A DNA stretch of 64,000 nt from Chrysophaeum taylorii (taxonomy: Eukaryota; Sar; Pelagophyceae; Pelagomonadales; Pelagomonadaceae): NCBI GenBank assembly GCA_029834535.1, contig JAQMWT010000129.1:1-64000 (forward strand), read 5' to 3'. The position numbers were made by a program, and so were the translations under genes. The first letter of the stretch is position 1, and every line of letters starts with the position of its first letter. A model generated the notes under the pieces. That model was not told where the DNA came from. It did not search any database and saw nothing but the letters and a program-made list of their open reading frames with translations. This document shows, piece after piece, positions 3,131 through 23,116 of the stretch.

Positions 3131-3189
3131 GACAAAGGTGTAGGTGATGGGTATCCAAACCAAGGAGGCGTGCTTAGATAGCAGCTCCT

Positions 3190-4390
3190 TAGCAGTCGCC
3201 TCCATCTCCATTTCTGGTGTTTTTTTTCACTTCTTCATCTGGAGGTGGCTGAGGAGGAGGTCTGTCACTCAAGACATCCTCCTCGACTTCATCGTCGTCA
3301 ACAGCAGCCGTAAGAGTGGCATGACACACGTCATCAGTGGCTTCTAGCTGCATGTTGACACATCCTTCATGCGGCATGATCTCGCCTTCGACCACCAGGA
3401 CTTCGGGGTCGATACCAATGGGTTCGTCACCAATGTGCTCCACAGCCACATGAACTTCGTTGGGCTCATCAGCGCAATACGATGAATAGGAACCAGGTAC
3501 AAGGCGGAGATCTTGGAGGAGTGATCGACAAGGTCGGAATACGTGACCCTTTTCCAGCGGCACATCGCACTCCATCTCCAAGAAGTACGGTTGGCTTGGA
3601 AGAAGAAATCGAGTACTCGTCACGTACGCGAAATGAGGGATGATATCTTCCTCGCCTGCAGGGCATTCAAGTTGGTCTTCCGCTGTTTCAGTAGTCTGAT
3701 CACCGGGAGGAGCGTGATGGTGACTCGCTCTGATACGAATAGACCGCAATAGACTGTCATAACTCCACGGTTTACCAACTGGCGTCCAAGTTTGGATATT
3801 TCCGTATTGCACAGCAAGCTTAGCTGTCGGGAACATCTGCACTACCTGCGGGGTCGCATCGAATGCATCATTGTAAAGGACAATTCCATGCTGGTCTTGT
3901 GGCGAGGCGGAAGTCCGATTCTTGAGAACTCCAATGGTCACTTCAGAACGCCGAAAGATAGCTCTCTCTGTCGCATAATCCAAAATCGTACCCAAGAGTC
4001 GTAATTCTCGTGCTCCTAATAGTAACTGCCCATTCGTTTGACCAACGAAGAACATGAGCAGCATGGATGTCGTCGGCACCAAGGAGATCCGGAGAATGAC
4101 GCATTCTCGAATAGCAGCTCCCGAACCTTCTGATCCATTTAGAGTACGAATAGTAGGGAGTGGCTGACGATAGATGATTTTGCCGTCACGATCAAGTTTG
4201 CGATACAAGCGGTGATCGATGTAGGAGAAATCAGCCATGCCATCCAAACCGGCAGTGATGATGGAATGTTTCGAACCATCTAGCGAGGAGATAGCCACAG
4301 GCACATACGTCAAAGAGGCGGATCTCGTGCCATCGTACCGTACGGCTTTATTTTCACGATGGTCGGGATCCTGAGTGGTATTCAACGCAG
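3190..4390 (-). mobile_element. aspartic protease region of the LTR element
   Basis: The reading frame downstream of gag carries a retropepsin-like segment near its N-terminus (TAGLDGMADFSYIDHRLY), then a hydrophobic strand pair (QTNGQLLLGARELRLLGTIL) resembling the C-terminal flap and ILG part of retropepsins. The rest is an acidic linker running into the methyltransferase region. By family it would process the Gag-Pol polyprotein. The assignment rests on position and short motif likeness. Confidence 0.6.
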
Positions 4391-4857: not shown

Positions 4858-6909
4858 TCACCCTCTACCCGGCGGAGCCGTCTGCTGTGCCTGACGAATC
4901 AAGTTCATCGTGTTGAGAGCCGTAGTCAGATCCTCCAGGCGCACCGGGGTCTGAGCGGTCCGCTGCACTGCAGGCTGCCTTCGGACCACCTGTTGTTGAG
5001 AGCCTGCAACCAAACGCTGCTGACTGCCTGCAACCAGCTGCTGTTGACCTGCACCTGGCATCTGCGCTGCTGTGTAGACCACCTGCGGCTGTTGCACAAC
5101 GCGCGGCGCTAGCTGAGTCACTGAAGCCTGCCCTGCAGCAGCTAAAAGCGTCCGTCGGTATTGCTCCTGTCCCTCTGGCGTTGCTGGAAAACCCGCAGTC
5201 GTCAACGTCTGAGCAGCACGCCTCTTCCTCGAGGGATTGTCCGGCACAGGACACACACCGTTGTCGTGGTTAAAACTACCATGCCGGCCGCAACTGAGGC
5301 ACGTCGTAATTGCTTGGCGCGTATGGTTATCTATCCCCTGTGGTAGCCAGGTTCCAATTCCCGAGTCAGTAACATAACCAACCCGTTGGACTGGCTGCAA
5401 CTGCTGCCTCTGCTGCTGCTGCTCTCTCCTCATCCGTGGTGCGTGCTCCTTTCCTTTCTCCTTCTTAATCGCCTCTTCGATGTTGGCAGTAGGGTTGGCT
5501 TCCAGAATCTTGGAAATCTGGATGGTCGATTGAATGGCATCGTTGAGGGTGAGAGTAGATGCTTTCATATGCGGTGAGGCCTGAGCAAGTTCGACGCTCG
5601 TCCGCAAGCGCTCAGAATTGAGACCAGCAATGAAGTGCGAACGGAACGCAGCCGGATCAGTATCGCGACCTGACATTGCTCTCCACTGGCCGAATTTCTG
5701 CACCCATCGCGCAATATACTTATTCAATGACAAATTCCCCTGCCGTAAATTGAACCATTCACGTTCAAGCTCCTCAACCGTAGCCCGAGGTGGACAAGGA
5801 AGCTTCGTCGCCTCTTGCATAGCATCCAGACAGTCGTCATCATGCTGGCGCAACTCTTTCATTGTGATGGTCCCGTCCTTGTATTGTTTCCACATCTGCG
5901 GCCGTTCAGCTTCCCACTTGCGATAAGCTCCCATAGGGGCGAGTTGATACTCGCCTCCAATCACGTTCATCGCAATTGAGGGTTTATCAATCTTGCCTTC
6001 CATCATACGCCGCAATTGCATCCACCACGCGTCCACCTCATCACGGTCCTTAGTAATTTGCCCAGTGAGATTCGAAAACGTGATACGTGTCATACCAGCA
6101 GCTCCCTTCTTGACATGAAGTATCTCTTCTTCGTCACGACGACGCGCCGAACCGGGGTCAGTATGATGGTGCGGGGTAGGCTCCGGTCGACTTCGCGGTG
6201 GCTGATCGTCGGTCAATGCCGATACAGCGTCATCATCGTCGGGCGTAACACAAGTAGCATCCGGAGAGGTTCGCCGTGCCTCTCGAGCATTCGCCCGCAT
6301 GGATTCCTCCACCATTCGTCGAAGTCGATCGTTGTCGATCCGCTGCCGCTCCACTTCTGAGCGTTGTTGCTGCGCGTCGCGGCGGGTGCTCTCAAGTTCA
6401 CGTATGACTTGCTCGATCTGCGACTGGTACATCTCGAATCGTTCGGCGATGGTCTGCAGAACCTCGGGGTCGACATCCACGCGAAAATCTGTCGCTCTCG
6501 TATTCGCAGATGGTGGCCTAGGAGGTGCACTCTCCTCTGGTCCACGCATCGCCGTAACCGGTCCGGGTTCCGCTCGAGATGACTCCGTAGCATTCATCGC
6601 ACGTTCGTAGGGTCGTGCGTACGGGAACGTCGGCTCACCCGGTCTTGAAGTTGCGTCTGGCGCAACCGTAGCTCCCCCTTCGCCGGTGCGTGGATCCGGA
6701 AGGATGACCACGCTTGGGGGGCTGTCGAGGCTATCAGATGATCTTGCCTCTCTTCCGATGCCACTTTCCTCGGCTTCCGGCCGTTGAAAGGGCGTACTGA
6801 ACGGTGTTCTCCCAAGAGACGCAAATGGAGTCCCTGCACTGAATCGTTGCAGACGCTCCTGTGCGTCCCGAAACCACTGCGGTCGTTCTGTCATTGGCCT
6901 CTCTGCCAT
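4858..6909 (-). mobile_element. gag-like region of the LTR element
   Basis: This long region encodes a protein of about 683 residues at the 5' end of the element. The N-terminal third is proline-, serine- and arginine-rich. A coiled coil (heptads around EQVIRELESTRRDAQQQRSE) lies near residues 150-210. A helical capsid-like section with a REWFNLRQGNLSLNKYIARW stretch follows near residues 380-410; such a motif is typical of retrotransposon Gag domains. A Cys/His knuckle of CX2CX7HX4C form (CLSCGRHGSFNHDNGVC) lies near residue 540, followed by a Gln-rich tail. The role by family is RNA packaging in a particle. Confidence 0.8.
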
Positions 6910-7851
6910 GACAGCGCTTTGCCCGGATAATAGGCTTAATCCGAACGCTCACAACTCACTTGTATTCTTTTCGTCAGACGACAATTGCCGGCAGCCGTCT
7001 GACTGCGCGCTGTACCGGTGCGCTGGACTTACGGAAGTATTTGCCTTGCGCGTGAAGACTATGGACGGCCTTCCCGGTGCTGTCGCTCGCCGTCAGGGAG
7101 GTGGTCTGCCTCGCGCGAGCTAAGTTATGTCTTACTCTGTCTTTGCCTGGTTAGGTCTTAAGATGCTTTGCCTGGTTGAGTCGTAGTGACTCCGCTCCCG
7201 TTCGATCCGAGTCATGTAAAATGAACCCCGCGGCGGTACCCGTGATCCTCTGGATCTTCACCCACAAATGCGTCGGCTTCGCACTCACTCGACCGTTACG
7301 AACCGACTCGCCGCCGAAAAACAGGAGATCGATAGTCCGGGAGTTGGACTATCGATTCCCGTTTCTGAGACCACTGTAGTGGTTTTCTCAGATACCCGCC
7401 CCTCCTGGCCGGACCAGGGGCCTCAACAACCCTTTCTCCCAACCCGAACCGCGGGTGAAACCACCACGCGCCCGATCTAAGCGTAATACCTCACGCCATC
7501 ACGAAATCGGACAATCAAATGAGGGTTATATCAAGACAAGTGCAGGCCAGTAAGTTCACCTAGTCCCAATCTCTAACCCCAGTAAGTTCACCTTGTCCCA
7601 GTAAGTTCACCTGGTGAGTAAGTTCACCTAGTCCCAATCTCTAACCCCAGTAAGTTCGGCGTAAACCCACTCGTGCTCACACCCACTCAGCCCACTCTCC
7701 TTCGAGCTCGTCGCTCTCACCTCCGCCAATCTAAGCCGCTTTTATCCGTACACGCCGCTAGCCTTTGCGTTCACTCTAAAAACCCCTGTAAGTTCACTTG
7801 GCCCCAGTAAGTTCACCTGGTCACTCAGCTCACCTAGTCCCAATCTCTAAT

Positions 7852-8109
7852 AGGGTCGGATAAGAAAGTTCGTACGAGCCGTTAACTATGTTTCAGTTTG
7901 TACTAAGACATACTCAACGGATCGCTGAGCTATGTTCATTTGTACTCAAGCAGTATGTGCCGCCACGCCGCGAGATCGTCGCGATGGAACTAGTCCCCAT
8001 AGTGAAGTCGGCATCCTTTCGTCCCCTCACGCAAAAAAAGGAAAAAGCCCACGCGTTGTAGGACCCGTCGTTGCGGCGCGGGCTAGTCTCGTTTTCTTAT
8101 CCGACCCTA
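7852..8109. mobile_element. hAT-like MITE, copy 1
   Basis: The element is about 257 bp and bounded by inverted repeats AGGGTCGGATAAGAAA and TTTCTTATCCGACCCT. It is flanked by an 8-bp duplication, ATCTCTAA, derived from the surrounding minisatellite. It has no coding capacity. An 8-bp target duplication and (T)AGGG ends fit the hAT superfamily. A near-identical copy lies at 58908-59166; I saw only about two internal differences, so both moved recently. Confidence 0.85.
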
Positions 8110-8579
8110 TCTCTAACCCCAGTAAGTTCACCTGGTCTCAGTAAGTTCACCTACAGTGCGCGTGTAGACGCCGGGAGGGGGCTTATCGGTATTGCGCAGC
8201 ACGTGTGGAGTAGGGTGGAGTCGTCGACCAAGAAGAGGATATCCTCGGGGTTGCCGATCGACAGAGAGCCACGTAGAGCTGGACGTGACAGAAGACGGGC
8301 TTCGCCAAGAGGACGCCGACCTCGCGGGGCGTCTGGCCCTGGCTCTTGGTGATCGTTTGGCGTCGGCGGGCCTTAAGGGATACAGGTTGGAGGAGCCTCG
8401 GTGACAACGACACGATCGATCATGTATCTGGTACCGTTGCAGTGGCCGAGCGACGGGTCGAGGTTGCGAAGACTTTAAGCTCGCGATCAAAGTCAGCATG
8501 CCGTTGGTTGTCAGGGAGTTCAAAACTCGACTGTAAAGAGCGAGGCGTCGTCTTCCGACCCAACCTAGTCGGCCGAAAA

Positions 8580-8981
8580 GAACTCCGACGCCTCGTCTCC
8601 GGGAAAAAAAGGCCGCGGTCATGCGCGCGTTGTCAGCATCGACAACATCGTTTCGACGGGGCGTGAGAATGGCGCGCTGAAAGAGCCGCCGCGGGTCGTG
8701 GAAATAGTCTGCGAGGTCGCCGTGGACGGCTTGGAGGATCAATGCCTGGCTCTCGCGCCTACCTGATCCTTACTCTCGCAGAACTCCGACGCCTCGTCTC
8801 CGGGAAAAAAAGGCCGCGGTCACGCGCGCGTTGTCAGCATCGACAACATCGTTTCGACGGGGCGTGAGAATGGCGCGCTGAAAGAGCCGCCGCGCGTCGT
8901 GGAAATAGTCTGCGAGGTCGCCGTGGACGGCTTGGAGGATCAATGCCTGGCTCTCGCGCCTACCTGATCCTTACCCTAAAT
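8580..8981. repeat. 201-bp tandem duplication within the Helitron fragment
   Basis: Two head-to-tail copies start at 8580 and 8781, both beginning GAACTCCGACGCCTCGTC and ending near CTACCTGATCCTTAC. They differ at only a few positions, so the duplication is recent relative to the helicase fragment it copies. Confidence 0.85.
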
Positions 8982-9404
8982 CGAGGGACAAACAGACAAA
9001 CGGGGCCCGTCCTCTCTTCGCCTGGCCCACGCCTCGGCGATGACCCCGACTAGGTCCCGCGTACTTATCTCCGCCCGTCAGGCACATCCCTCATACCCCA
9101 CAAACCCACCCACATCCTTCATGCTCCCCACACACACCCCCCCCCTCTTAGCAGTCGACATTTAAAGACAAACAGACAAACAGACAAACAAACAGACAAA
9201 CAAACATCTGTCGATTAGTAGTTAAGATAAGATAAGAAGACAGCAAGAAAGCAATACAAATGCCCGGTACATTGGGTCCAGGAAGCGCAGGTGAAGGTGT
9301 CGAGATGACACTCCCCCAATAAATGCAAGGTCAATACCAGGGCAACAATCAGGGTAAGTCAGGTGGCAGGCAGGCAAGTGGGGGAAATGGGCGTTACTGC
9401 CACA

Positions 9405-9725
9405 CCTGCCTTGTGTAGTAACACGTGACATGCGGAGTTGTCTAGTCGCACCTAAGACCGCACGCGGTCTCTACCATACACCCGGAGAGGGTCAAATCTC
9501 TCCAAAACTGCATGGGAAAGCCGCTGATGAAACTCGCTGCCCAACTCTGGCTTAAGCACCCACGGAGCTTTTCGGACAGCGGTAGTATACGAATTTCAGC
9601 ACAAGAGCGCTATACTAAAGCTTCGATCTTACTTATCCGCATACCGGGTCGATGTGGCGATCGCTGGTCATTCACCATCAATGACGCAAGCGCCAATAGA
9701 CGCTGGTCGGCGAATCGAGGGCAAT
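9405..9725. other. spacer without recognisable features
   Basis: Between the outer LTR edge and the stop codon of the receptor-PARP gene. I see no gene, hairpin or repeat here beyond short chance frames. Confidence 0.5.
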
Positions 9726-12700
9726 TTACAAAAGGGGTGATGCATCGCCTTCCATAGTAATGTCATGGACCTCTTCTGTCTTGGAAGTGAAACGGACGAG
9801 ATAGGCGGGGTAGGCCTGGTGGTCGTTGTAGGTGACGAAAATTGAAGGGTGGAACTCGTTGTCGACGGTCGTGTCGTAGCGCTGGTTTGGATTACCTTCG
9901 AGAGCCGGCGGGACGACGGAATCGGCGACGCCCTTGGTATAGCGGCCGACAATGATGCGGCACACAAAGACGTTCTGGACGCCGTCCTTGTCGGGCGGCG
10001 AGTACTTTGGAAAGCACGAGTAATCGGCGTCGACCGCAAAGTAGACGCCGCGGCCGTGCTGGGCCGACTTGGAGCAGAAGTCGCGATTGAATCCCTGCTC
10101 GACAATCTTGCCGGCGGCCTCGCCAGTAGTGCCGTGGTAGACGGGAAAGATCTCGACCTTTGGATCGAAGCCGTTGTTGTCCTTCAATAAGCGACGGTCG
10201 GGGGTGAGACCCTCGCGCTCGAGGATCGTCATGCGCTTGGTCGCATAGGGGCGCCAGAGCGACACGTTTTGGATGCGCTCGACGGAGACGACGTCATAGT
10301 AGTTAGGGTCGAAGGCGCGCAAGATTTCGGCGCGCTCTTTGGCTGGCGCGCGGCCGGCGCCTAGCTTAATCGTGTGGCACTGGGACTCGTCTGTCATTGT
10401 CGTTGTAGTCCAACTCTTAGGTGGAAGCAAGAACTTGAAGTCGCGAAGCGCGGTAGCGTCTGGAACGACCGAAACGCTATGGTCGCACTCCCTGACGCAC
10501 GACACGGGGAACCAGCCAGCGTTGTCGAGAACCTCGTTCATGTTGTGGATCTCTCGGCCAAAGGCCCACTCGCCCGCCTCGTGTTCGTAGACGACGGATA
10601 CGAGCATGCCGGTCGTGAGGGTGAGGCACTCGCGGCCCTGGATGTCGCGCGGCATACCCTTAACAGTGGGCACACCCTTGACGAGCGCGTTTGAGCCTCC
10701 GGTGCGGACGTTCGAACCGCGCGTCGCCTCCATCATGACGCAGACCGGGCGACGGAAGCCCGTCTCGACCTTGGTCTGCCACATCGTTCCCACATCAATC
10801 TCGTACTTGTACTCGAGCGCCGACGTTGTAAGCTCGTTGTAGGCGTCGATTTTGACGGTTGAGGATTTGGCCTGGCGGCGGCGGCGAGCGAGATACACCT
10901 CAGACAGTTTGCGCTGGACCTGTGGATCTTCGTAGCGGACCCACAACGTCCCGCTTCGCGTCGCTGCGTTGCGCCACTTAGCCATATTCCGGAAGTTTTC
11001 CCGCCAGTACCACGTAAACTCGACCTCCCGGGAGTCCGGGTCCATCCTCACCTTTCGGCATTTCCCCGTTTTGAGATTGCGCTGTGTCATTGTAGCTATG
11101 TTGATCTCGAGCCATTTACCGTTGGCGGCCGTCGACGTCGTCGTGTTGGCGAGTTCCGACTTGGATTCGGGTTCCTTGCTTTCGGTCCGCCGTACGCTAA
11201 CTGTATCGACCGAGGGCTGCTCTGGGATGTTTGTCGTTGAGGTAGGCCGAACGATGAGCGTGTAGTCGGCCGCGTCTACACCGGCGACGATATTTCGAGC
11301 TGACGTTGCCATCTCGTCGTCCTCGTCGTCGTCACCGCGCGATTGCGATTTGAGTTGCTCCCGTACGGCTTCGGGGAGCTGACAGAAGCGCCAGTACAAC
11401 TCTGAGAGCTGGTCCTGGACCACCTCGTCATAAGCGACCCAAGCGGGTTCGACATCCTCAGGGAGAGGCGTTCCTTTGTCGAGGAAAGATACCTTCTCCT
11501 CCTGTCGCGACGTCGTCTTGAGTCGCTCGCTGTCTTCCTCCCACCACCACATCTCCAGCTTGAAGACCCCGCCGGCGGTGGCCCCGCCGCGCCGAAACCC
11601 TTGGTCCTTGGTATCTTCTTGCAACAACGACGTACTCTGCGAGTCGCCCCACCCCGGAATATCGTCCGATGTCGCGAATGGCAGCTTGCGGTACTCTGAT
11701 TCATTCCGAAAAGAAAAGGCCGTGATGAGAGTTGAAACGTCGCCTTTGCCGAAAATGTCTTCGGCCCCGCGCTTCTCGAGGACGTGCACCGTTTTTTCTT
11801 CGTGCTGCTCAGGGTCAAAAGGTTCTACGACCTCGTACGCGCGAAGCGACGCGACGAGGGCCTTGCGGTGGCGGAAGTCTTGGAGGCGGAATACGTATCC
11901 GGCGGCGACACACAAGCACGCAAGCGTCATCACAAACGCAACCATTGCGATCACTAAAGAGAAGATAAGTGTTCGACTCACCTGCGGCTCTTTTTCGTCA
12001 TCGGTCACTGCGTCGTCGACGTCATCCGACACGAAATCAATGGGGACTGTCGTCACTCGCCCCGGCCAAATGACCGTGCCAAATAACGTGGATGACTGCT
12101 CCGAGACGTCATATTCGCCGACGATGATGAACTCGGCGAACGCATTTGTCAGTGGGACTGCGCGCTGCACGTCATCCCGCCGCTGTTTTCTCGCGAGCAG
12201 TGAATCCGACGACGATGTCCTCGACAACGACGACGACACGGTCTGCTCTTTATTCTCCTCGTTCTCGAGGCGACGAAATTCTCGATTTGTGATCTGCATG
12301 TTGTTGACATCGATCCTTCCGAGCCGGTCGCCGGTTTCGGGCGAAAGCACAACTGTTCCCGAAACGCCCGAGTGCGGCTCGAGCGCAAGGATCTGCGCGT
12401 AAATGTCCGCCGCCAAAAAGTCGTGGGCGCTGGCAATTTCTGTCGTCGAGGATTTCATGAATTTGTCTAGTCCCAACACGTAGATGAACACCGCATCAAA
12501 CCAAAACGCACCGTACCCATAGATGGTGTACGGGTTACCGTCGACATCGCAATACTTAGATCTGTCTTCGGAAACGTAGACGAAGTCGTTCTCGCTCGCC
12601 TCGCCATACTCGGTGAGCTCGCCGTCTTCGTATATCAACGACGTTCCAGCTACGATGGATCGGTCCGTACACGCCTCGACGCTGGCCCCGGAGGCCCACG

Positions 12701-15554
12701 CGTCCATGTAAAAGGAAGCCTGGCCACCGTCTGAATACACCGGCGAATGTTCGATGAACCCGACCGCACCCTCGTGACCGAAGATAGCATCGAAGTCGAC
12801 GTTCCCATCCGAGTCTAAGAATGTGTCCTCTGACGGGAAGAAGGTGAGCCAGCCGTAGCCTGCGCCCAGAAACAGCCCCGTGTTGTACGAGGCCGCGAAA
12901 ATCTTCTCCTGGACGCGCGGGTAAGTCGCTATGAGGATGATGTTGGTGTCAAGAGACGCGACTGACTCGAGGATGTCGGTACCAGTGATGTCCCCGGCGT
13001 CGAAGGCCTCGAGCGAGAATGCGACTCCCACGTTCACCCCGTCGATCTTGGTCGTGGCCCCACAGGTGTAGTTGGCCCCCGAGACGCAGATGCCACCACC
13101 GAGAATGAGGTGCTCGTCCGAGTGAAAATTGTCGACGAACGCCTGCGCGCCCTCCTGGCCCCACTGCGTGTCGTCGTGTATGACTATCAGCCGTGTCCAG
13201 TACGACTCGGCGTACTTCGAAATCGCGACGCCGACTTCGGATTTGGAGGTAGCGACGCGCACGAGGTACGGGTAGATCGCCTCGTCACTAAGTGACGGTG
13301 CTGTCGCCTCGGGAGATATGACCACGTACGGTTCGGATTGGCCCGTTTGAGCCGCAAACGCCGCGAGTGCGTCGGTTGACGAGACCGCAGCCACGTCGTC
13401 CGAGCACGTCGGCATAACTAGCGAGATGGACTCGCCTTCCAGAGTCGACGCGAGCGCGACCAAGCCATCAAACGCCCTGCCCTCGACGCAACCGACCGTC
13501 ACATCGTGCGCAACGAGCCTGACATTTGGAACGAGTTGGTTATACAACAACGAGCCATCGCGGTCGTTCAAGATAGCGATTGCGTTCAGGGCATGATCGC
13601 ATTGCTCACGGCGAACGATTGACCCCCCGCACAGCACTGCGACGTGGACCTTGATGAATTCATCAGACTCCTGAGATATGCGCGCAGGGACCGTCGAGTT
13701 GGAAAAGCCACCCGCGATGTTGTAAGCGGTGGTAGCATCGAGTGCGACATCTTCGGTCGGATAGAACGTCTGCATGTAGGCCGAGACGGCACTCCAGTGC
13801 GCGACGCCGAGCTCGACAACGTCGGCGTCCTCGAAGATGTCAGCGTATATGGAGCCGGTGTCGTGCACGTTTGTGAGGAGTCGACTCGAGCCCGCGACCG
13901 AGTAGTTGCGGTTGTCGTCGAGCTCGATACCATCGATGAGGATGTTGTCGTCGATCGTGGGGACTTCAGACAAAAAGAACCACGTGGTCTCCACCGACGA
14001 CGACACCTGGAGGAAGTAACGACCCTTGTAGACATCCAGCGACAGCGAGTCGGACGAGTAGTCGTCGTCATCATCGTCGATGTGAGGTGCCTCGACGTCG
14101 AGACGTTTGATCGAACGCTGTAAAGTGTCGCGGATAGACCTTCCGAGAACGTTCCTGAGCACGACGATCTCGTCGCCCAAATCGGGCACGAGGTTGATGA
14201 TGTCGGCTTTGGTGACCGCGCCGTTCCCGAGGGAGGCGCCCAGCGCTCCGGCGGTGACAAATGCAACATCGGCGTCCGCGTACCACATGAGAGCATCCGC
14301 GACAAAATCGCCGGCCTGGCACTCGGCGACCTCGCAGCCGCACAACGGAGTTTCTGAGGTCAAGAGTGTCGTGCAGTCCGCGTCCTGGATGAGCTGGGTG
14401 GCGTCGAGGGTCGATGCCAAGTAACCGGCGTGCCCCAACACATGATCCGCCAAAGTTTGATCCACCGTTGCTTTAAGGTCGTCGAGCTCCTCGCGGATCG
14501 ACGCGTCTTCCGGCGCTTCGCAATTCAATTCAATCACGCCACGGCTTGAGGTATCGGGCTGGTACTGCCCCACCGAGTTGAAGGACATGGTCGTGTTCAT
14601 GAGCGTAACACCCCTCGGCCTCGAGTCCGTAACGGCGAACCCGACCTTGTTGAGCGCCCAGTTTTCGAAAGTTTGAAAACGGTCTTCTTCGGCATAGCTC
14701 CGTCCAATCTCCGATGTGCCGTCGAGAAAAATTACGTCGGGGAGGAAGAAGTTGAGGGCAAACGAGTAGGTGATTTGTTGATCTCTGAGATAATCATCGT
14801 CGACAGAGAACAACATGTCGTCGTCGGCTCTCGCGACTATTCCCTCGAGCGTAGCATCGGAGATGCTGGAGACCGCGATGGCGAGAATATCCGGCACGCC
14901 AACCGAAAGCAGCATCTCGGACAGCGTGAACGACACAGCGCGCTCATACCCAATAACACGCGCGGCGTAGTGCGGCGAGACGCGCTCGAGCTCGAAGCCG
15001 TCGATCATATGATATACGCCCATCCTCACGTCATCGAACACCGTGAACACGGAAAATTTACGGACGTGCGACGAATTCAAGTATGGATCGTCTGTCAGGT
15101 CGAGGTTTGAAACGACCGCCACGGAACCGGTACGCGCCAAGTGCTCCGCGAGCGCCTTGCCACCAGTCGGCTCGTCGGCGGTCACCCCGGCAGCGAAATC
15201 GCGCGGGTTGAGGCATCGAGCTTCGAAATTGAGACTGCGATACAGCTCGTTCGCCGCTGCGTCGCCAAACGTCGGGTAAAACAGCCCCGATCCGAAAAAC
15301 CACCCGCCTAAGTCGATTGCCACCACGGCATCTTTGCCCTCCAACAAGGCTTCCTCGCGCCGTGCGGCGATGGCCCCCGCGCGCCTAGCTGCCCCCCCAT
15401 CGCACTCACACGGCGACCTTTCGTACGCCTCCAGCGAACATTCCGAACCGTTCTGTGCAATGGGATAGTGCGCGCCGCGGACGGCCGACGACACCACCAC
15501 CTCGATATCGTAGGCTTGAGCGCCGAGGCACGACAAGAGCAAAACAAGAGTCAT
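9726..15554 (-). CDS. single-pass receptor-like protein with pseudo-5'-nucleotidase, ANF-receptor, WWE and PARP (mono-ART) domains
   Basis: The protein has 1942 residues from the Met that opens a clean signal peptide (MTLVLLLSCLGAQA); an in-frame Met 20 codons upstream would spoil it. Residues about 15-370 resemble a 5'-nucleotidase metallophosphatase domain, but the usual D-H, AGD and GNHE metal-ligand motifs are not seen (for example IDLGGWFFGSG and LNPRDFAAG stand in their places). Residues about 395-630 match the 5'-nucleotidase C-terminal domain (QAGDFVADALMWYADADVAF). Residues about 633-1055 look like a periplasmic-binding/ANF-receptor ligand domain. One membrane span lies at about 1195-1220 (LIFSLVIAMVAFVMTLACLC). 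Inside follow two WWE-like domains (about 1327-1600), an SH3-like segment, and a PARP catalytic domain at about 1800-1925 with YHGT, GRGVYFA and FVTYNDHQAYPAYLV. This last resembles the PARP10/14/15 mono-ADP-ribosyltransferase class. No intron is needed. Ligand sensing outside coupled to ADP-ribosylation inside is inference. Confidence 0.85.
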   Translation of the reverse strand: MTLVLLLSCLGAQAYDIEVVVSSAVRGAHYPIAQNGSECSLEAYERSPCECDGGAARRAGAIAARREEALLEGKDAVVAIDLGGWFFGSGLFYPTFGDAAANELYRSLNFEARCLNPRDFAAGVTADEPTGGKALAEHLARTGSVAVVSNLDLTDDPYLNSSHVRKFSVFTVFDDVRMGVYHMIDGFELERVSPHYAARVIGYERAVSFTLSEMLLSVGVPDILAIAVSSISDATLEGIVARADDDMLFSVDDDYLRDQQITYSFALNFFLPDVIFLDGTSEIGRSYAEEDRFQTFENWALNKVGFAVTDSRPRGVTLMNTTMSFNSVGQYQPDTSSRGVIELNCEAPEDASIREELDDLKATVDQTLADHVLGHAGYLASTLDATQLIQDADCTTLLTSETPLCGCEVAECQAGDFVADALMWYADADVAFVTAGALGASLGNGAVTKADIINLVPDLGDEIVVLRNVLGRSIRDTLQRSIKRLDVEAPHIDDDDDDYSSDSLSLDVYKGRYFLQVSSSVETTWFFLSEVPTIDDNILIDGIELDDNRNYSVAGSSRLLTNVHDTGSIYADIFEDADVVELGVAHWSAVSAYMQTFYPTEDVALDATTAYNIAGGFSNSTVPARISQESDEFIKVHVAVLCGGSIVRREQCDHALNAIAILNDRDGSLLYNQLVPNVRLVAHDVTVGCVEGRAFDGLVALASTLEGESISLVMPTCSDDVAAVSSTDALAAFAAQTGQSEPYVVISPEATAPSLSDEAIYPYLVRVATSKSEVGVAISKYAESYWTRLIVIHDDTQWGQEGAQAFVDNFHSDEHLILGGGICVSGANYTCGATTKIDGVNVGVAFSLEAFDAGDITGTDILESVASLDTNIILIATYPRVQEKIFAASYNTGLFLGAGYGWLTFFPSEDTFLDSDGNVDFDAIFGHEGAVGFIEHSPVYSDGGQASFYMDAWASGASVEACTDRSIVAGTSLIYEDGELTEYGEASENDFVYVSEDRSKYCDVDGNPYTIYGYGAFWFDAVFIYVLGLDKFMKSSTTEIASAHDFLAADIYAQILALEPHSGVSGTVVLSPETGDRLGRIDVNNMQITNREFRRLENEENKEQTVSSSLSRTSSSDSLLARKQRRDDVQRAVPLTNAFAEFIIVGEYDVSEQSSTLFGTVIWPGRVTTVPIDFVSDDVDDAVTDDEKEPQVSRTLIFSLVIAMVAFVMTLACLCVAAGYVFRLQDFRHRKALVASLRAYEVVEPFDPEQHEEKTVHVLEKRGAEDIFGKGDVSTLITAFSFRNESEYRKLPFATSDDIPGWGDSQSTSLLQEDTKDQGFRRGGATAGGVFKLEMWWWEEDSERLKTTSRQEEKVSFLDKGTPLPEDVEPAWVAYDEVVQDQLSELYWRFCQLPEAVREQLKSQSRGDDDEDDEMATSARNIVAGVDAADYTLIVRPTSTTNIPEQPSVDTVSVRRTESKEPESKSELANTTTSTAANGKWLEINIATMTQRNLKTGKCRKVRMDPDSREVEFTWYWRENFRNMAKWRNAATRSGTLWVRYEDPQVQRKLSEVYLARRRRQAKSSTVKIDAYNELTTSALEYKYEIDVGTMWQTKVETGFRRPVCVMMEATRGSNVRTGGSNALVKGVPTVKGMPRDIQGRECLTLTTGMLVSVVYEHEAGEWAFGREIHNMNEVLDNAGWFPVSCVRECDHSVSVVPDATALRDFKFLLPPKSWTTTTMTDESQCHTIKLGAGRAPAKERAEILRAFDPNYYDVVSVERIQNVSLWRPYATKRMTILEREGLTPDRRLLKDNNGFDPKVEIFPVYHGTTGEAAGKIVEQGFNRDFCSKSAQHGRGVYFAVDADYSCFPKYSPPDKDGVQNVFVCRIIVGRYTKGVADSVVPPALEGNPNQRYDTTVDNEFHPSIFVTYNDHQAYPAYLVRFTSKTEEVHDITMEGDASPLL

Positions 15555-16217
15555 ACCGCATACGTTCTTTGAAACCGGTTGTGGCGATTTTTCGTTGAAG
15601 GGGTCATGGAACAAGTACGACGTCCCGAGGTGTGGATAAGTTTTGTCGATTTGTCTATATTTGCGGACATTTCCGGCCGTTAAAAGTCTTTCCGAACAAG
15701 GAGTAGAGGGGAAGGACCGGGTGAAGAGTTGCGAAGCCCAAGGAATAGTCGGATCTAACTAATCCGCCCTTGCCCTAATTGCGATTTCCCCTTACTAAAA
15801 ACTTCGGGCCGCGAAAGCACGCGATCGGTGCAGGGCTCCGCCCGCCGGACTTTGCGTCCACGGGAACTTCACGACCTCATCTGTCGGTCAGGCCAAAGTC
15901 CGGCGGACAGACGGTGCTAATCAGACCGTGCTGTCGCCGCGTCCTTATGGCACTTCTCGCAACAGCCGCGGATGATATTTTGGCGGCAGCGACGGCATTA
16001 GACACCGAACGCTGGTGGGAAATCGACGTTGGCTTCGCACGACGCGTTGGTGCGAGTCTAAATCTCACTGTCGACTACGAAATACTCAACGCCGCGCTCA
16101 CTCCCGGGCTGGCCGGTTAGCACCCGGAAAGTCCGCGCTGGGATGGGGTTCGCTCAATTTGGGCAGAACGCGACGGACAGGTCGATTGTTCGTTGACCGA
16201 CACGTTCGCGGCCTGCG
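15555..16217. other. 5' flank of the receptor gene, no gene recognised
   Basis: This holds the presumed promoter of the receptor gene. A short plus-strand frame (15779-16120) has no family likeness. Nothing else is supported. Confidence 0.4.
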
Positions 16218-16406
16218 ACGCTTTTGCACGACTTCGCACAAGACCGCGCGCAGTGGCGCTCCGCCATCAACCAGTCCTCGTCACTCGCCTTTGCCCCAGC
16301 TGCGTGATTTTCCTATGTTATTCCGGATCGGCTCCTGCCGGTCCGGCCTGGCTCCCATGCTCTGGCTCCCATGCCACGGGAGAGGTCTGGAATTAGTTAA
16401 GTTAGC
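16218..16406 (-). repeat. dispersed CTAACTAA/hairpin repeat, copy a
   Basis: This is the reverse complement of 36382-36565. Both share the GAGGTCTG/CAGACCTC block, an inverted repeat around GACCGGCAGGAGCCGGTC, and a CGCGCGGTCTTGTGCGAGGT block. Shorter copies lie at 37998-38088 and 42822-42902. Confidence 0.75.
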
Positions 16407-16420
16407 ACTCACTAGAGATC

Positions 16421-17205
16421 TTGGTCCGACTCTTCGAAGGCACCACCGCAAAGATGCGGCTGGTCGGAGGCACTGGTCGTACTGCAGTAACCCGACGAAG
16501 TTCACGGGCAACCCCCCCCCGCCGTCTTCATTGTCAATGCGGCGCAGGCGGAAGCCGCGAGACCAGCCACCTGCCCACCTGTCCGGCCTGGGACTGGCCG
16601 AATACAACGACGTGGGCCATCCTCTCGGAGTACGGCGCTTACTGGCCTGACCCAGTGCCGAGTACGAACAAGAGGCGGGCTCAGTCGACGCCGAGCAAAG
16701 CACCGCCAAAGTCGGACGAGGAGTACGACGACACGCCGTCGCCAGCCCCGTACCGGCAACCCGAGGCCATCATGGCAAAGCCCAAGCTCGAAGCCTAGGA
16801 TCACTCAACGGAGATCGCGAGGCTGAGAGCGCGCGTCAGGCACCTCGAGTACGAGAAAGAGGACGTTAAGACCAAGCTGCAGCAGAGCTAGCCGCCTACC
16901 ACCAGGTCGACGATCTTCAAGTCGAAGTACGCCGGCATCGAGAGCTCGTGACCTTCAACGCCAGCACGATAAAGAAGCAGGAGTGCGAGCTCGAGGCGCT
17001 GTTTCGAGCTGCTGATGGAGCTCGACGCCGAGTCGAGATTTTGTCAGAGGTGCGCGTCCGGGATGCCGAGGCCCGCGCCTCGGAGGCGGAGGTGCGCGCC
17101 TGGGACGCCGAGGCCCGCGCCTCAGCGGCCCAGGCGAAGTTCTTGGCGGAGGTCAATGGAGGCTTGAGTTCGATGAAATTATCGGGGGGGTCGACAGGGA
17201 ACTGA
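16421..17205 (+). pseudogene. broken coiled-coil protein gene
   Basis: Successive plus-strand pieces read like one protein tail. A Pro/Ser-rich section (KRRAQSTPSKAPPKSDEEYD) ends at a stop near 16798. Then come helical heptads (TEIARLRARVRHLEYEKEDV) ended by another stop near 16890, then a frame from about 16914 with repeated DAEARASEAEVRAWDAEARA. Stops separate the pieces, and the 5' end is replaced by the repeat at 16218-16406. The family is unknown. Confidence 0.45.
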
Positions 17206-17272
17206 TTGAAGGATTCCGTCATTGGCCGAGCCGAGGGAACTGATTGAAGGATTCCGTCATTGGCCGAGCCGA
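17197..17272. repeat. 38-bp tandem duplication
   Basis: Two adjacent identical copies of a 38-bp unit starting GGGAACTGATTGAAGGATTC, at 17197 and 17235, at the 3' end of the broken coiled-coil gene. Confidence 0.9.
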
Positions 17273-17283
17273 TCCTAACTACT

Positions 17284-17797
17284 AATCGACAGATGTTTGT
17301 CTGTTTGTCTGTTTGTTACTACTAATCGACAGATGTTTGTCTGTTTGTTTGTTTGTTTGTTTGTTTGTTTGTTTGTTTGTTTGTTTGTTTGTTTGTTTGT
17401 TTGTTTGTTTGTTTGTTTGTTTGTTTGTTTGTTTGTTTGTTTGTTTGTTTGTTTGTTTGTTTGTTTGTTTGTTTGTTTGTTTGTTTGTTTGTTTGTTTGT
17501 TTGTTTGTTTGTTTGTTTGTTTGTTTGTTTGTTTGTTTGTTTGTTTGTTTGTTTGTTTGTTTTTTTGTTTTTTTGTTTTTTTGTTTTTTTGTTTTTTTTG
17601 TTTTTTTGTTTTTTTGTTTTTTTGTTTTTTTGTTTGTTTTGTTTTTTTGTTTTTTTGTTTTTTTGTTTGTTTTGTTTGTTTTGTTTGTTTGTTTGTTTGT
17701 TTGTTTGTTTGTTTGTTTGTTTGTTTGTTTGTTTGTTTGTTTGTTTGTTTGTTTGTTTGTTTGTTTGTTTGTTTGTTTGTTTGTTTGTTTGTCTTTA
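17284..17797. repeat. (TTTG)n microsatellite with a TTTTTTTG block
   Basis: About 500 bp of TTTG, interrupted at 17560-17690 by longer T runs (TTTTTTTG and TTTTTTTTG). It reads through as Phe-Val-Cys-Leu repeats in plus-strand frames, which are not genes. It is flanked by ACTACTAATCGACAGATG on the left and CTTTAAATGTCGACTGC on the right, the same border motifs seen around the Helitron units. Confidence 0.95.
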
Positions 17798-17862
17798 AAT
17801 GTCGACTGCTAAGAGGGGGGTGTGTGTGGGGAGCATGAAGGATGTGGGTGGGTTTGTGGGGT
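17788..17862 (+). repeat. CTTTAAATGTCGACTGC border module
   Basis: A module of about 70 bp: CTTTAAATGTCGACTGCTAA, a G run, then a GT-rich tail. Copies lie at 38091-38137 and 38151-38218 (plus), 9095-9167, 19040-19075 and 59262-59300 (minus), with a diverged copy at 36266-36360. The repeated association with Helitron unit ends suggests an element border. Confidence 0.7.
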
Positions 17863-18369
17863 AGGAGGAATTGTCCACCGATTTAGGGTATGGATGGAGG
17901 ACCACTGTCTGGCTCTCGCTCCTACCTGATCCTTACTCTCGCGCCTACCTGATCCTTACCCTAAATCGACGCACAAACAAACAGACAAGCAGACAGACAA
18001 ACATCTGTCGATTAGTAGTTAAGATAAGACAAGTGCAGGCCAGTAAGTTCACCTAGTCCCAATCTCTAACCCTAGTAAGTTCAGGTCTGGTCCCAGTAAG
18101 TTCACCTGGTCAGTTAGTTCACTTAGTCCCAATCTCTATCCCGGCGTAAACCCACTCGTGCTCACACCCACTCACCCCACTCTCCTTTGAGCTCGTCGCT
18201 CCCACCCCCGCTAATCTAAGCTGCTTTGATCCGCACGCGACGCCAACCTTTGAGTTTGAGTTGTCAAAAAACTCCAGTAAGCCCACCTGGTCTCAATAAG
18301 TTCACCTGCACTCAGTTCACCTAGTCCCAATGTCTAGACGCAGTAAGTTCACCTGGTCCCAGTAAGTTC

Positions 18370-18990
18370 ACCTACAGTGCGCGTGTAGACGCCGGGAGGG
18401 GGCTTATCGGTATTGCGCAGCACGTGTGGGGTAGGGTGGAGTCGTCGACTCAGAAGAGCATATCCTCGGGGTTGCCGATCGACAGAGAGCCACGTAGAGC
18501 TGGACGTGACAGAAGACGGGCTTGGGCGAGAGGACGCCGACCTCGCGGGGCGTCTGGCCCTGGCTCTTGTCGATCGTTTGGCGTCGGCGGGCCTTAAGGG
18601 ATACAGGTTGGAGGAGCCTCGGTGACACCACACGATCGATCATGTATCTGGTACCGTTGCAGTGGCCGTGCGACGGGTCGAGGTTGCGAAGACTTTAAGC
18701 TCGCGATCAAAGTCAGCATGCCGTTGGTTGTCAGGGAGTTGAAAACTCGACTGTTAAGAGCGAGGCGTCGTCTTCCGACCCAACCTAGTCGGCCGAAAAG
18801 AACTCCGACGCCTCGTCTCCGGGAAAAAAAGGCCGCGGTCACGCGCGCGTTGTCAGCATCGACAACATCGTTTCGACGGGGCGTGAGAATGGCGCGCTGA
18901 AAGAGCCGCCGCGGGTCGTGGAAACAGTCTGCGAGGTCGCCGCAGACGGCTTGGAGGATCAATGTCTGGCTTCCGGGCCTACATGATCCT
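18370..18990 (-). pseudogene. Helitron Pif1-like helicase fragment, copy 2
   Basis: Minus-strand pieces include DPRRLFQRAILTPRRNDVVD and NSLTTNGMLTLIASL, then, after a frame change, KSQGQTPREVGVLSPKPVFC with HVQLYVALCRS. These match the last helicase motifs of Helitron transposases in order. It covers only about the last 200 residues; the Rep domain and the helicase N-terminus are absent. Confidence 0.75.
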
Positions 18991-19112
18991 TACCCTAAAT
19001 CGGTGGACAAACAGACAAACAGACAGACAGACAAACACACACCCCCCCCTCTTAGCAGTCGACATTTAAAGACAGACAGACAAACATCTGTCGATTAGTA
19101 GTTAGGAAGAAA

Positions 19113-19738
19113 GATCATGTAGGCCCGCGAGCCAGACATTGATCCTCCAAGCCGTGTGCGGCGACCTCGCAGACTATTTCCACGACCCGCGGCGGCTCTT
19201 TCAGCGCGCCATTCTCACGCCCCGTCGAAACGATGTTGTCGATGCTGACAACGCGCGCATGACCGCGCCCTTTTTTTCCTGGAGACGAGGCGTCGGAGTT
19301 CTTTTTGGCCGACTAGGTTGGGTCGGAAGACGACGCCTCGCTCTTTACAGTCGAGTTTTCAACTCCCTGACAACCAACGGCATGCTGACTTTGATCTCGA
19401 GCTTAAAGTCTTCGCAACCTCGACCCGTCGCACGGCCACTGTAACGGTACCACATACATGATTGATCGTGTCGTTGTCACCGAGGCTCCTCCAACCTGTA
19501 TCCCTTAAGGCCCGCCTACGCCAAACGATCAACAAGAGCCAGGGCCAGACGCCCCGCGAGGTCCGCGTCCTCTTGCCCACAAGCCCGTCTTCTGTCAAGT
19601 CCAGCTCTACGTGGCTCTCTGTCGATCGGCATCTCCGAGGATATACTCATCTGGGTCGACGACTCCACCCTACCCCACACGTGCTGCGCAATACCGATAA
19701 GCCCCCTCCCGGCGTCTACACGCGCACTGTAGGTTAAC
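19113..19738 (+). pseudogene. Helitron Pif1-like helicase fragment, copy 3
   Basis: Plus-strand pieces in order: GDLADYFHDPRRLFQRAILT, NSLTTNGMLTLISSL, then in another frame HCNGTTYMIDRVVVT (the family's CNGT box), then TINKSQGQTPREVRVLLPTS. It mirrors copy 2 across a short spacer. The two frame changes are shared with the other copies. Confidence 0.75.
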
Positions 19739-21315
19739 TTACTGGGACCACGTGAACTTACTGGGGTTTGAGATTGGGACTAGGTGAACTGAGTGACCAG
19801 GTGAACTTACTGGGACCAGGTGAACATAGTGGGGTTTTTAGAGTAAAGGGTTTTTAGAGTAAACTCAAAGGTTGGCGGCGCGTGCGGATCAAAGCAGCTT
19901 AGATTGGCGGAGGCGAGAGCGACGAGCTCAAAGGAGTTGGTGTGAGCTAGGTGAACTTACTGACCAGGTGAACTTCTACGAAACTGGAACCAGGTGAACT
20001 TACTTGTCTGTCTGTCTGTCTGTCCCTCGAGTTAGGGTAAGGATCAGGTAGGCGCGAGAGTAAGGATCAGGTAGGCGCGAGAGCCAGGCATTGATCCTCC
20101 AAGCCGTCCACGGCGACCTCGGAGACTATTTCCACGACGCGCGGCGGCTCTTTCAGCGCGCCATTCTCACGCCCCGTCGAAACGATGTTGTCGATGCTGA
20201 CAACGCGCGCGTGACCGCGGCTTTTTTTCGGAGACGAGGCGTCGGAGTTCTTTTCGGCCGACTAGGTTGGGTCGGAAGACGACGCCTCGCTCTCAAGAGT
20301 CGAGTTTTGAACTCCCTGACAACCAACGGCATGCTGACTTTGATCGCGAGCTTAAAGTCTTCGCAACCTCGACCCGTCGCACGGCCACTGTAACGGTACC
20401 ACATACATGATTGATCGTGTCGTTGTCACCGAGGCTCCTCCAACCTGTATCCCTTAAGGCCCGCCTACGCCAAACGATCACCAAGAGCCAGGGCCAGACG
20501 CCCCGCGAGGTCGGCGTCCTCTTGGCGAAGCCCGTCTTCTGTCACGTCCAGCTCTACGTGGCTCTCTGTCGATCGGCAACCCCGAGGATATCCTCTTCTT
20601 GGTCGACGACTCCACCCTACTCCACACGTGCTGCGCAATACCGATCAGCCCCCTCCCGGCGTCTGCACGCGCACTGTAGGTGAACTTACTGGGACCAGGT
20701 GAACTTACTGGGGTTAGAGATTGGGACTAGGTGAGCGGAGTGACCAGGTGAACTTACTGGGGCCAAGTGAACTTACAGGGGTTTTAAGAGTGAACGCAAA
20801 GGCTAGCGGCGTGTACGGGTAAAAGCGGCTTAGATTGGCGGAGGTGAGAGCGACGAGCTCGAAGGAGAGTGGGGTGAGTGGGTGTGAGCACGAGCGGGTT
20901 TACGCCGAACTTACTGGGGTTAGAGATTGGGACTAGGTGAACTTACTGACCAGGTGAACTTACTGGGACCAGGTGAACTTACTGGGGTTAGAGATTGGGA
21001 CTAGGTGAACTTACTGGCCTGCACTTGTTTGTCTTTAAATGTCGACAAGTGCAGGCCAGTAAGTTCACCTACTCCCAATCTCTAACCCCAGTAAGTTCGG
21101 CGTAAACCCAGTCGTGCTCACATCCACTCACCACTCTCCTTTGAGCTCGTCGCTCTCACCCCCGCCAATCTAAGCTGCTTTGATCCGCACACGTCGCTAA
21201 CCTTTGAGTTTACTCTAAAAACCCCAGTAAGCTCACTTGGCCTCAGTAAGTTGACCTGGTCACTAAGTTCACCTAGTCCCAATCTCCAACCCCAGTAAGT
21301 TCAGGCCTTTGGTCC
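19728..21315. repeat. GTGAACTTACTGG minisatellite arrays with embedded promoter-like module
   Basis: Degenerate tandem copies of AGGTGAACTTACTGGGACC and GGGGTTAGAGATTGGGACT occur here around helicase copy 4. The same array in either orientation lies at 7550-7850, 8110-8160, 18027-18370 and 22640-23000. Within the arrays a module of about 100 bp recurs (19850-19940, 20775-20895, 22752-22880; reversed at 7661-7790, 18141-18280, 21101-21230) with core AACTCAAAGGTTGGCGGCG and CAGCTTAGATTGGCGGAGG. Confidence 0.8.
20066..20688 (+). pseudogene. Helitron Pif1-like helicase fragment, copy 4
   Basis: Same motif order as copy 3 (FQRAILTPRRNDVVDADNAR, CNGT box, TITKSQGQTPREVGVLLAKP, HVQLYVALCRS), the C-terminal part in a separate frame. 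It is preceded by a doubled AAGGATCAGGTAGGCGCGAG and followed by the minisatellite. Confidence 0.75.
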
Positions 21316-21329
21316 CAGCAAGTTCACTG

Positions 21330-21900
21330 CGCACGCCGGGAGGGGTGGAGTCGTCGACTCAGAAGAACATATCCTGGGGGTTGCCGATCGACAGAGAGGC
21401 ACGTAGAGCTGGACGTGACAGAAGACGGGCTTGGGCGAGAGTACGCCGACCTCGCGGGGCTTCTGGCCCTGGCTCTTGTCGATCGTTTGGCGTCGGCGGG
21501 CCTTAAGGGATACAGGTTGGAGGAGCCTCGGTGACACCACACGATCGATCATGTATCTGGTACCGTTGCAGTGGCCGTGCGACGGGTCGAGGTTGCGAAG
21601 AGAAGCTCGCGATCAAAGTCAGCATGCCGTTGGTTGTCAGGGAGTTGAAAACTCGACTGTAAAGAGCGAGGCGTCGTCTTCCGACCCAACCTAGTCGGCC
21701 GAAAAGAACTCCGACGCCTCGTCTCCGGGAAAAAGGCCGCGGTCATTCGCGCGCGTCAGCATCGACAACATCGTTTCGACGGGGCGTGAGAATGGCGCGC
21801 TAAAAAGCCGCCGCGGGTCGTGGAAATAGTCTGCGAGGTCGCCGTAGACGGCTTGGAGGATCACTGTCTGGCTCTCGCGCCTACCTGATCCTTACTCTCG
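21330..21900 (-). pseudogene. Helitron Pif1-like helicase fragment, copy 5
   Basis: Minus-strand copy, slightly shortened relative to copies 2-4 near 21600 and 21745. The KSQGQKPREVGVLSPKPVFC segment remains. It forms the left arm of a large inverted repeat with copy 6. Confidence 0.7.
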
Positions 21901-22039
21901 CGCCTACCTGATCCTTACCCTAAAACGAGGGACAGACAAACAGACAGACAAACATCTGTCGATTAGTAGTTAGGACTGCTAAGAGGTCTGTCCCTCGATT
22001 TAGGGTAAGGATCAGGTAGGCGCGAGAGTAAGGATCAGG

Positions 22040-22660
22040 TAGGCGCGAGAGCCAGACAGTGATCCTCCAAGCCGTCTACGGCGACCTCGCAGACTATTTC
22101 CACGACCCGCGGCGGCTCTTTCAGCGCGCCATTCTCACGCCCCGTCGAAACGATGTTGTCGATGCTGACAACGCGCGCATGACCGCGGCCTTTTTTTCCC
22201 GGAGACGAGGCGTCGGAGTTCTTTTCGGCTGACTAGGCTGGGTCGGAAGACGACGCCTCGCTCTTTACAGTAAGAGTTTTCAACTCCCTGACAACCAACG
22301 GCATGCTGACTTTGATCGCGAGCTTAAAGTCTTCGCAACCTCGACCCGTCGCACGGCCACTGCAACGGTACCAGATACATGATCGATCGTGTCGTTGTCA
22401 CCGAGGCTCCTCCAACCTGTATCCCTGAAGGCCCGCCGACGCCAAACGATCAACAAGAGCCAGGGCTAGACGCCCCGCGAGGTCGGCGTCCTCTCGCCCA
22501 AGCCCGTCTTCTGTCACGTCCAGCTCTACGTGGCTCTCTGTCGATCGGCAACCCCGAGGATATGCTCTTCTGAGTCGACGACTCCACCCTACCCCACACG
22601 TGCTGCGCAATACCGATAAGCCCCCTCCCGGCGTCTACACGCGCACTGTAGGTGAACTTA
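22040..22660 (+). pseudogene. Helitron Pif1-like helicase fragment, copy 6
   Basis: Plus-strand copy with the same motif order and the same frame changes as copies 3 and 4. It is separated from copy 5 by only about 60-100 bp of spacer holding CTGTCGATTAGTAGTTAGG. Confidence 0.75.
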
Positions 22661-23116
22661 CTGGGACCAGGTGAACTTGCTGGGGTTTGAGATTGGGACT
22701 AGGTGAACTGAGTGACCAGGTGAACTTACTGAGACCAGGTGAGCTTACTGGAGTTTTTTGACAACTCAAACTCAAAGGTTGGCGGCGCGTGCGGATCAAA
22801 GCAGCTTAGATTAGCGGAGGTGAGAGCGACGAGCTCAAAGGAGAGTGGGGTGAGTGGTGTGAGCACGAGTGGGTTTACGCCGGGATAGAGATTGGGACTA
22901 GGTGAACTTACTGACCAGGTGAACTTACTGGGATTAGGTGAACTTACTGGGGTTAGAGATTGGGAGTAGGTGAACTTACTGGCCTGCACTTGTCTAACAC
23001 TGACCAATCAGCAGGGAGAACGATACCCTGATACTAGAACCCTAACTTGATATTGTTTACAGTATCTGCGGTATATTTCTGACGCAACGTGCTGTCACGG
23101 GGCACATAGCGGCGCC

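Follow-up and report, generated by a model that had tools for sequence, protein, structure and literature searches.

A predicted receptor-like mono-ADP-ribosyltransferase and its paralogues in the genome of the alga Chrysophaeum taylorii

Kinases, phosphatases, cyclases and G proteins are all known outputs of receptors, and in the natriuretic-peptide receptors NPR-A and NPR-B an ANF_receptor ectodomain is joined by a single membrane span to an intracellular guanylyl cyclase. A gene in a 64,000-nucleotide stretch of Chrysophaeum taylorii DNA (contig JAQMWT010000129.1, the whole stretch being called the window hereafter) raises the question of whether this layout can also end in an ADP-ribosyltransferase (ART), as a first-pass annotation of the window had proposed. 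We found that this gene has the single-pass layout, as a layout, with a ligand-binding-type ectodomain, one span and an enzyme domain in one polypeptide. From its sequence and that of its paralogues, we consider it probable that the family consists of ligand-controlled type I single-pass receptor mono-ADP-ribosyltransferases. The anatomy is well supported, and ligand control, enzymatic activity and location are predicted from it. The alternatives weighed below overlap one another and, in part, this favoured reading, and their probabilities do not sum to one. Loci are named by contig (C129, C125, C323 and so on) of one 70.8 Mb genome, C129 being the gene of the window.

The gene lies on the minus strand as a single frame of 1942 amino acids (9726..15554). 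Its earliest in-frame ATG is at 15554 and its stop codon, TAA, at 9726-9728, and the annotated domains are indeed all within it. From stop to stop the frame measures 2010 amino acids, and no further in-frame ATG lies upstream of 15554. For comparison, the longest chance stop-free frame had a mean of 227 and a maximum of 399 amino acids in 200 first-order Markov simulations of window positions 9001-16500. Furthermore, a G+C bias by codon position was seen in all ten successive 200-codon segments of the frame, including those that flank the span. The parts of the gene are as follows.

9726..15554, minus strand: complete coding frame, 1942 amino acids and TAA (frame analysis; paralogues match most of the length)
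15513..15554, minus strand: hydrophobic N-terminus, probably a signal peptide, MTLVLLLSCLGAQA (hydropathy; Met and stretch shared with copy C125)
14355..15512, minus strand: 5'-nucleotidase-like N-terminal (metallophosphatase) domain, degenerate (eight-paralogue profile against 2z1a and CD73)
13884..14351, minus strand: 5_nucleotid_C, PF02872 (Pfam E 5e-15)
12294..13364, minus strand: Venus-flytrap domain of ANF_receptor or class C G-protein-coupled receptor (GPCR) type, PF01094 (Pfam E 2e-11; structures of GABA-B2, mGluR5 and NPR-C)
11889..11963, minus strand: single membrane span, basic on the PARP side (hydropathy; counterpart in 8/8 paralogues, and in C149 and C606)
11376..11561, minus strand: first WWE-like domain (limits drawn by eye from WWW...LYWRF, as Pfam counts two WWE stretches and gives the limits of the best one)
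10740..10967, minus strand: second WWE domain, PF02825 (Pfam E 2e-8)
10485..10625, minus strand: SH3-like segment, sub-threshold (SH3_2, E 0.011)
9789..10298, minus strand: PARP catalytic (ART) domain, triad H-Y-I (Pfam E 5e-13; nearest structures PARP15, PARP14, PARP10 and PARP12)

The four families that had been named for a profile search are all above the Pfam gathering cut-off: 5_nucleotid_C (56.3 bits against a cut-off of 23.6), ANF_receptor (43.7 bits), WWE, in two stretches as annotated, and PARP (PF00644, 49.6 bits against 26.7). The annotated SH3-like segment does exist as a match, but one below the gathering cut-off and suggestive only (E of 0.00063 in copy C125). In the same frame Pfam matched neither 7tm_3 nor, at E up to 10, Guanylate_cyc.

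The receptor mono-ART layout is supported by the paralogues, because 14 loci keep the 5_nucleotid_C, ANF_receptor and PARP domains together and two more put another ectodomain on a homologous WWE-PARP cassette. A Pfam PARP search of the genome gave at least 21 matches, among which 12 fall in loci with the ANF ectodomain (ANF-type: C129, C125, three in C323, C242, C370, C379, C388 and three in C439), two in loci with PBP_like_2 repeats (PBP-type: C389 and C673) and seven elsewhere (C360, C552, C495, two in C474, C480 and C122), C360 and C552 looking like PARP1/2-type enzymes. A search with the whole protein and searches for ANF and 5_nucleotid_C added C149 and C606, and in 14/14 ANF-type loci the order 5_nucleotid_C, ANF, PARP is kept on one strand. 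The frame is unbroken and the PARP motifs are intact in eight of the 14 (C129, C125, the three of C323, C242, C370 and C379). In C149 the long frame breaks inside the PARP domain, which resumes in another frame, and in C606 the frame is unbroken and the catalytic His is lost. In C388 and the three C439 copies the frames are interrupted, by either introns or decay; for one C439 copy the search printed an open frame of 1884 amino acids that is not borne out by the DNA itself, where the sequence is split into frames of 308, 506, 835 and 217. A genome WWE search gave at least ten places, the window's own WWE not among them, so these counts are lower bounds.

The two PBP-type loci have PBP_like_2 repeats, one main span, WWE and PARP. 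The inner half of C129 aligns with that of C389 at 29% identity over 458-460 amino acids and with that of C673 at 38% over 253-254. The ectodomains of C389 and C673 are in turn 30-32% identical, over 566-640 amino acids, to that of C695 (L049), a class C GPCR-like frame of PBP_like_2 and 7tm_3. Because the homologous WWE-PARP cassette stands under either ANF or PBP ectodomains, and the PBP type also stands on 7tm_3 at C695, ectodomains and outputs appear, from these alignments, to be exchanged as modules. The genome has three 7tm_3 matches (C695, C12 and C154), and the loci C12 and C154 matched neither the seven ectodomains tested nor profiles A1 and A2. C12 (L051) is, like C695, a class C GPCR-like frame with an unusual ectodomain, in its case Beta_helix joined to 7tm_3.

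A rival account would split the frame into two genes, or explain it as a receptor-like gene and a PARP gene fused by chance or by the assembly. What speaks for it in the sequence is the outer juxtamembrane stretch, where C129 and its closest copy C125 are conserved least (47% identity, with a ratio of nonsynonymous to synonymous substitution rates, dN/dS, of 0.64). However, ectodomain, span and inner part lie in one frame at eight loci with intact PARP motifs, and in one frame through the span at C149 and C606; the codon-position bias runs on across the junction; and the duplicated unit coincides with the frame. On the count of these loci we reject the fusion account, which we regard as highly improbable.

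The comparison with C125 also bears on whether both halves are maintained. The two copies are 84% identical, their DNA similarity breaks off no more than about 15 bases from either end of the frame, and the flanks are dissimilar (window 6001-22000 against 9001 bases of L009); with this identity and unlike flanks in the stretches compared, alleles or assembly duplicates are ruled out. By the Nei-Gojobori method the overall dN/dS is 0.275; none of the 11 segments reaches 1, and ten of them, all save the outer juxtamembrane stretch, range from 0.10 to 0.34. The PARP segment and the span both stand at 0.10, the latter value coming from 25 codons with synonymous sites near saturation. Thirteen of the 16 indels are multiples of three, two form a +1/-1 pair nine codons apart, and the remaining one is a two-base overhang of the compared slice. 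Both halves are thus, by these substitution ratios, under purifying selection in C129/C125, the sole pair measured by segment. In the tandem trio of C323 (L010, L011 and L012), copies a and b are 98.9% alike in the inner part and 91.0% outside, whereas b and c are 98.6% alike outside and 91.7% inside. Since outer and inner halves pair differently among the three, this mosaic suggests gene conversion or domain exchange.

Next, the inner half, about 717 amino acids with a predicted catalytic His, points to a particular kind of ART. Against solved structures, a profile of eight inner halves matched PARP15 (1e-40), then PARP14, PARP10 and PARP12, far ahead of tankyrase. The motifs YHGT, GRGVYFA and FVTYNDHQAYPAYLV are found as first quoted, and alignment with PARP15 gives as triad the H of YHGT, the Y of GRGVYFA and the I before FVTY. 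In 8/8 ANF-type copies aligned, the catalytic H and Y never vary and the third place is taken by I or V (L in PARP15); C673 and C389 also have H-Y-I. We take this I/V column to be the third place of the triad, a numbering consistent with the alignment. According to PMC9189837, H-Y-I and H-Y-L belong to PARP10, 11, 12, 14 and 15 and H-Y-hydrophobic is a mono-ART motif, H-Y-E being that of poly-ARTs yet also of the mono-ARTs PARP3 and PARP4. By domain and triad, the protein is therefore predicted to have the activity of a mono-ART (Clade 3).

The inner WWE and PARP domains might instead signal by binding ADP-ribose or NAD+ as a reader or scaffold, with no catalysis, which would make the receptors pseudo-ARTs. 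Degenerate relatives in the genome, described below, and PARP9 and PARP13, given as inactive family members in Table 1 of PMC9189837, lend this some weight. The retention of H, Y and I or V in the eight ANF-type copies aligned, the H-Y-I of both PBP-type loci and the low dN/dS of the PARP segment argue for catalysis, and we hold the reader or scaffold account to be unlikely.

In a tree of 20 PARP domains, 13 ANF-type rows and the degenerate C322 share one side of a 99/99 branch, with the caution that equally good clustering arose in 36 of 500 label shuffles. The PBP-type rows, human PARP15 and C495 are not resolved beside the ANF-type rows, and C606, C322, C495 and C552 sit on long branches. 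For these reasons the tree allows the membrane-bound cassette to have arisen either once or twice. In viral_contigs no relative was found by profile A1 or A2, and in genome_contigs none by A2, the one of the two run there; within these profile searches nothing points to bacteria or viruses as the source.

We examined next how the protein would lie in the membrane. The hydropathy scan gives one main span, as annotated, at residues ~1198-1222 (peak 2.77), with lower peaks in the N-terminal stretch (1.76) and at residue 214 (1.81). The N-terminal peak agrees with the annotated signal peptide, a reading that we regard as probable only. The span occurs at the corresponding place in 8/8 paralogues examined and is also present in C149 and C606; in several paralogues further weak peaks occur at other places, all below the level of the main span. 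In all eight paralogues, basic residues number 5-9 in the 25 positions on the inner side of the span and 2-4 in the 25 on the outer side.

A signal sequence and one span would suit any membrane of the secretory pathway, and the mono-ART could sense lumenal conditions in the endoplasmic reticulum (ER), the Golgi or a vacuole instead of acting at the cell surface; PARP16, which is anchored in the ER membrane (PMC10450202), is linked to ER stress. But in the same account the span of PARP16 follows its ART domain and leaves no more than a short helix after it, and the ectodomains of the C129 family are of receptor and nutrient-binding types, one class being common to a 7tm_3 receptor. An internal membrane is accordingly rated as improbable, though of the alternatives it is the one to which we give most weight.

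Turning to the ectodomain, the 5'-nucleotidase-like N-terminal domain proposed earlier is recovered by profile A3 (eight paralogues, nucleotidase region), which matched the solved structures 2z1a at 6e-12 and CD73 at about 1e-9; it is not a Pfam match, and it is degenerate. In alignments with 5'-nucleotidases it has GG in place of the GD motif and NPRD in place of GNHE; 8/8 paralogue rows have other residues where GD has its aspartate and GNHE its Asn-His. We take these motif residues to be metal-binding or catalytic, as in CD73 and UshA. With the aligned residues lost, the nucleotidase part is therefore read as probably a pseudo-enzyme, possibly serving as a binding module. An active ecto-5'-nucleotidase that feeds its product to the ANF domain would agree with the score of 5_nucleotid_C, well over its cut-off, but not with the replaced residues, if their presumed roles hold, and it is the least probable of the alternatives. 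For the ANF region, profile A4 matched GABA-B2 best (6.5e-12), then mGluR5 (5e-10) and NPR-C (9e-10), and the ANF part is on these matches at least as near to class C GPCR ectodomains as to those of natriuretic-peptide receptors.

Several findings weigh against the reading as a receptor mono-ART. Its fold assignments rest on profiles, and all relatives compared are paralogues of one genome. 5_nucleotid_C is below cut-off in C323b and C323c, and so is WWE in C379; in the single frames, ANF in C606 and PARP in C149 are below cut-off too. C606 (L046), which keeps ectodomain and span, and C322 (L041) are pseudo-ARTs without the catalytic His and without a Pfam PARP match, their PARP domain being detected by the family profile built here. 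In C389 the PARP domain diverges directly after the third triad residue, by either an intron or a frame change. The frame of C379 starts inside the N-terminal domain and that of C149 also begins inside the ectodomain, and the N-terminal hydropathy peak is under the threshold of 1.6 in C323c, C370, C389 and C673. Sequons number 0.44-0.87 per 100 amino acids outside and 0.17-0.61 inside, the inside being higher in C242; because this difference is modest, the topology rests on the basic-residue bias and on domain logic.

Under the receptor mono-ART reading, the ectodomain would face outside and bind a small ligand resembling an amino acid, a nucleotide or a nutrient. A receptor dimer would then change its arrangement, as class C GPCRs and natriuretic-peptide receptors do on binding, and this change would join or free the two cytoplasmic ART domains, which would use NAD+ for mono-ADP-ribosylation of the receptor and of cytosolic proteins close by. 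The WWE domains may recognise ligands of ADP-ribose type or keep substrates in place. Hydrolases of the macrodomain and ARH types might take the mark off; the genome has Macro at three loci and ADP_ribosyl_GH at three loci as candidate erasers. C439 (69878-70735 and 101694-124106) carries three receptor-ART copies in tandem and an ADP_ribosyl_GH frame; this frame, of ADP-ribose eraser type, lies ~31 kb from the tandem on the same contig and strand.

How does this layout compare with known systems? C129 shares with the natriuretic-peptide receptor guanylyl cyclases the ANF_receptor domain, the single span and an inner enzyme, NPR-C being among its structure matches, but in place of their cyclase its output is an ADP-ribosyltransferase. 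With class C GPCRs it has the Venus-flytrap (ANF) ectodomain in common, without 7tm_3. The diatom class C GPCRs of PMC3727952 have a periplasmic-binding-type ectodomain like that of C129; a figure legend there lists the boxed domains PBP1, 5-nucleotide-C, Cache 1 and 7tm_3, not tied to one protein. These diatom receptors carry 7tm_3, with G-protein coupling proposed, whereas C129 has one strong span and the WWE-PARP cassette. Since the legend lists PBP1, 5-nucleotide-C and 7tm_3, the ectodomain type of C129 appears to be already known on seven-transmembrane receptors, and the ART output is the new element. CD73 and 2z1a have the two-domain 5'-nucleotidase layout in common with C129 by profile, but in C129 the N-terminal motif residues are lost and the domains are fused to a receptor-like protein.

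On the enzyme side, C129 shares with PARP10, 11, 12, 14 and 15 the PARP domain with H-Y-hydrophobic and, with PARP11, 12 and 14, WWE; Table 1 of PMC9189837 gives these enzymes as cytosolic or nuclear and lists for them no receptor ectodomain or span, unlike C129. A PARP domain linked to a membrane span, as in C129, is found in PARP16 and in Clade 3 PARPs of Rhizaria, with transmembrane and H_lectin domains, and of a sponge, with an N-terminal span (PMC4245714). The account in PMC4245714 mentions no ANF or nucleotidase ectodomain for these, and the span of PARP16 is C-terminal (PMC10450202). In PMC2964712 the word transmembrane is absent from the main text. A receptor with the layout of C129 was not found in the open-licence PMC literature by titles and abstract openings, which does not imply its absence from print.

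On balance, with somewhat more confidence than doubt, we propose that receptor ADP-ribosyltransferases may be an undescribed class of eukaryotic enzyme-linked receptor. In this alga, sensor ectodomains of two sorts (a Venus-flytrap with a pseudo-nucleotidase, or repeats like substrate-binding proteins) would be joined to a seven-transmembrane G-protein-type or a single-span WWE-PARP output, and outside small molecules, perhaps nucleotides or phosphate, would directly set cytosolic mono-ADP-ribosylation. As to kind, we place C129 among the enzyme-linked receptors, with an output that is new to them; it may also form a receptor class of its own. If true, a receptor that carries a cytosolic ADP-ribosyltransferase adds an NAD+-dependent modification to receptor outputs, and mono-ADP-ribosylation gains a direct signal input. 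A related ectodomain on a seven-transmembrane or an ART output in one genome would be a natural experiment in receptor evolution.

The rest of the genome gives these genes their setting. Because 34 ANF matches were listed, the alga is predicted to have many Venus-flytrap-type receptors. An ANF-guanylyl cyclase was sought among them and rejected: none of the three Guanylate_cyc matches lies at an ANF place, and by Pfam matches no single frame has both. C675 (L050) has 5_nucleotid_C and ANF and no PARP in the fetched stretch; its frame ends Cys-rich and is followed by a downstream frame with hydrophobic stretches, as seen by eye. Seven more ANF_receptor frames (L027-L033) include five with Cys-rich Ephrin_rec_like matches and, in the fetched pieces, none with PARP. 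The alga is taken to be photosynthetic because the genome has 84 Chloroa_b-bind matches, and one of its light-harvesting proteins best matches, by match names, fucoxanthin- and peridinin-type light-harvesting proteins; from this its plastid is taken to be of red type and the alga itself probably a stramenopile.

In the window itself, an Rfam scan gave zero matches. Dispersed at 7547-7820 and 19775-22982, on both sides of the gene, are short repeats in tandem, 17, 19 and 32 bp long, around GGTGAACTTACTGGGG, and a 23-bp unit starting GTAAGGATCAGGTAGG (either strand) is doubled at 17913, 20037, 21872 and 22005. These dispersed repeats are possibly a mobile or introner-like element. Immediately downstream of the gene, at 8579-8974, a 201-bp unit occurs twice, with the two copies 98% alike, and at 1463-3226 on the minus strand a frame matches C-5 cytosine DNA methylase with 35 bits.

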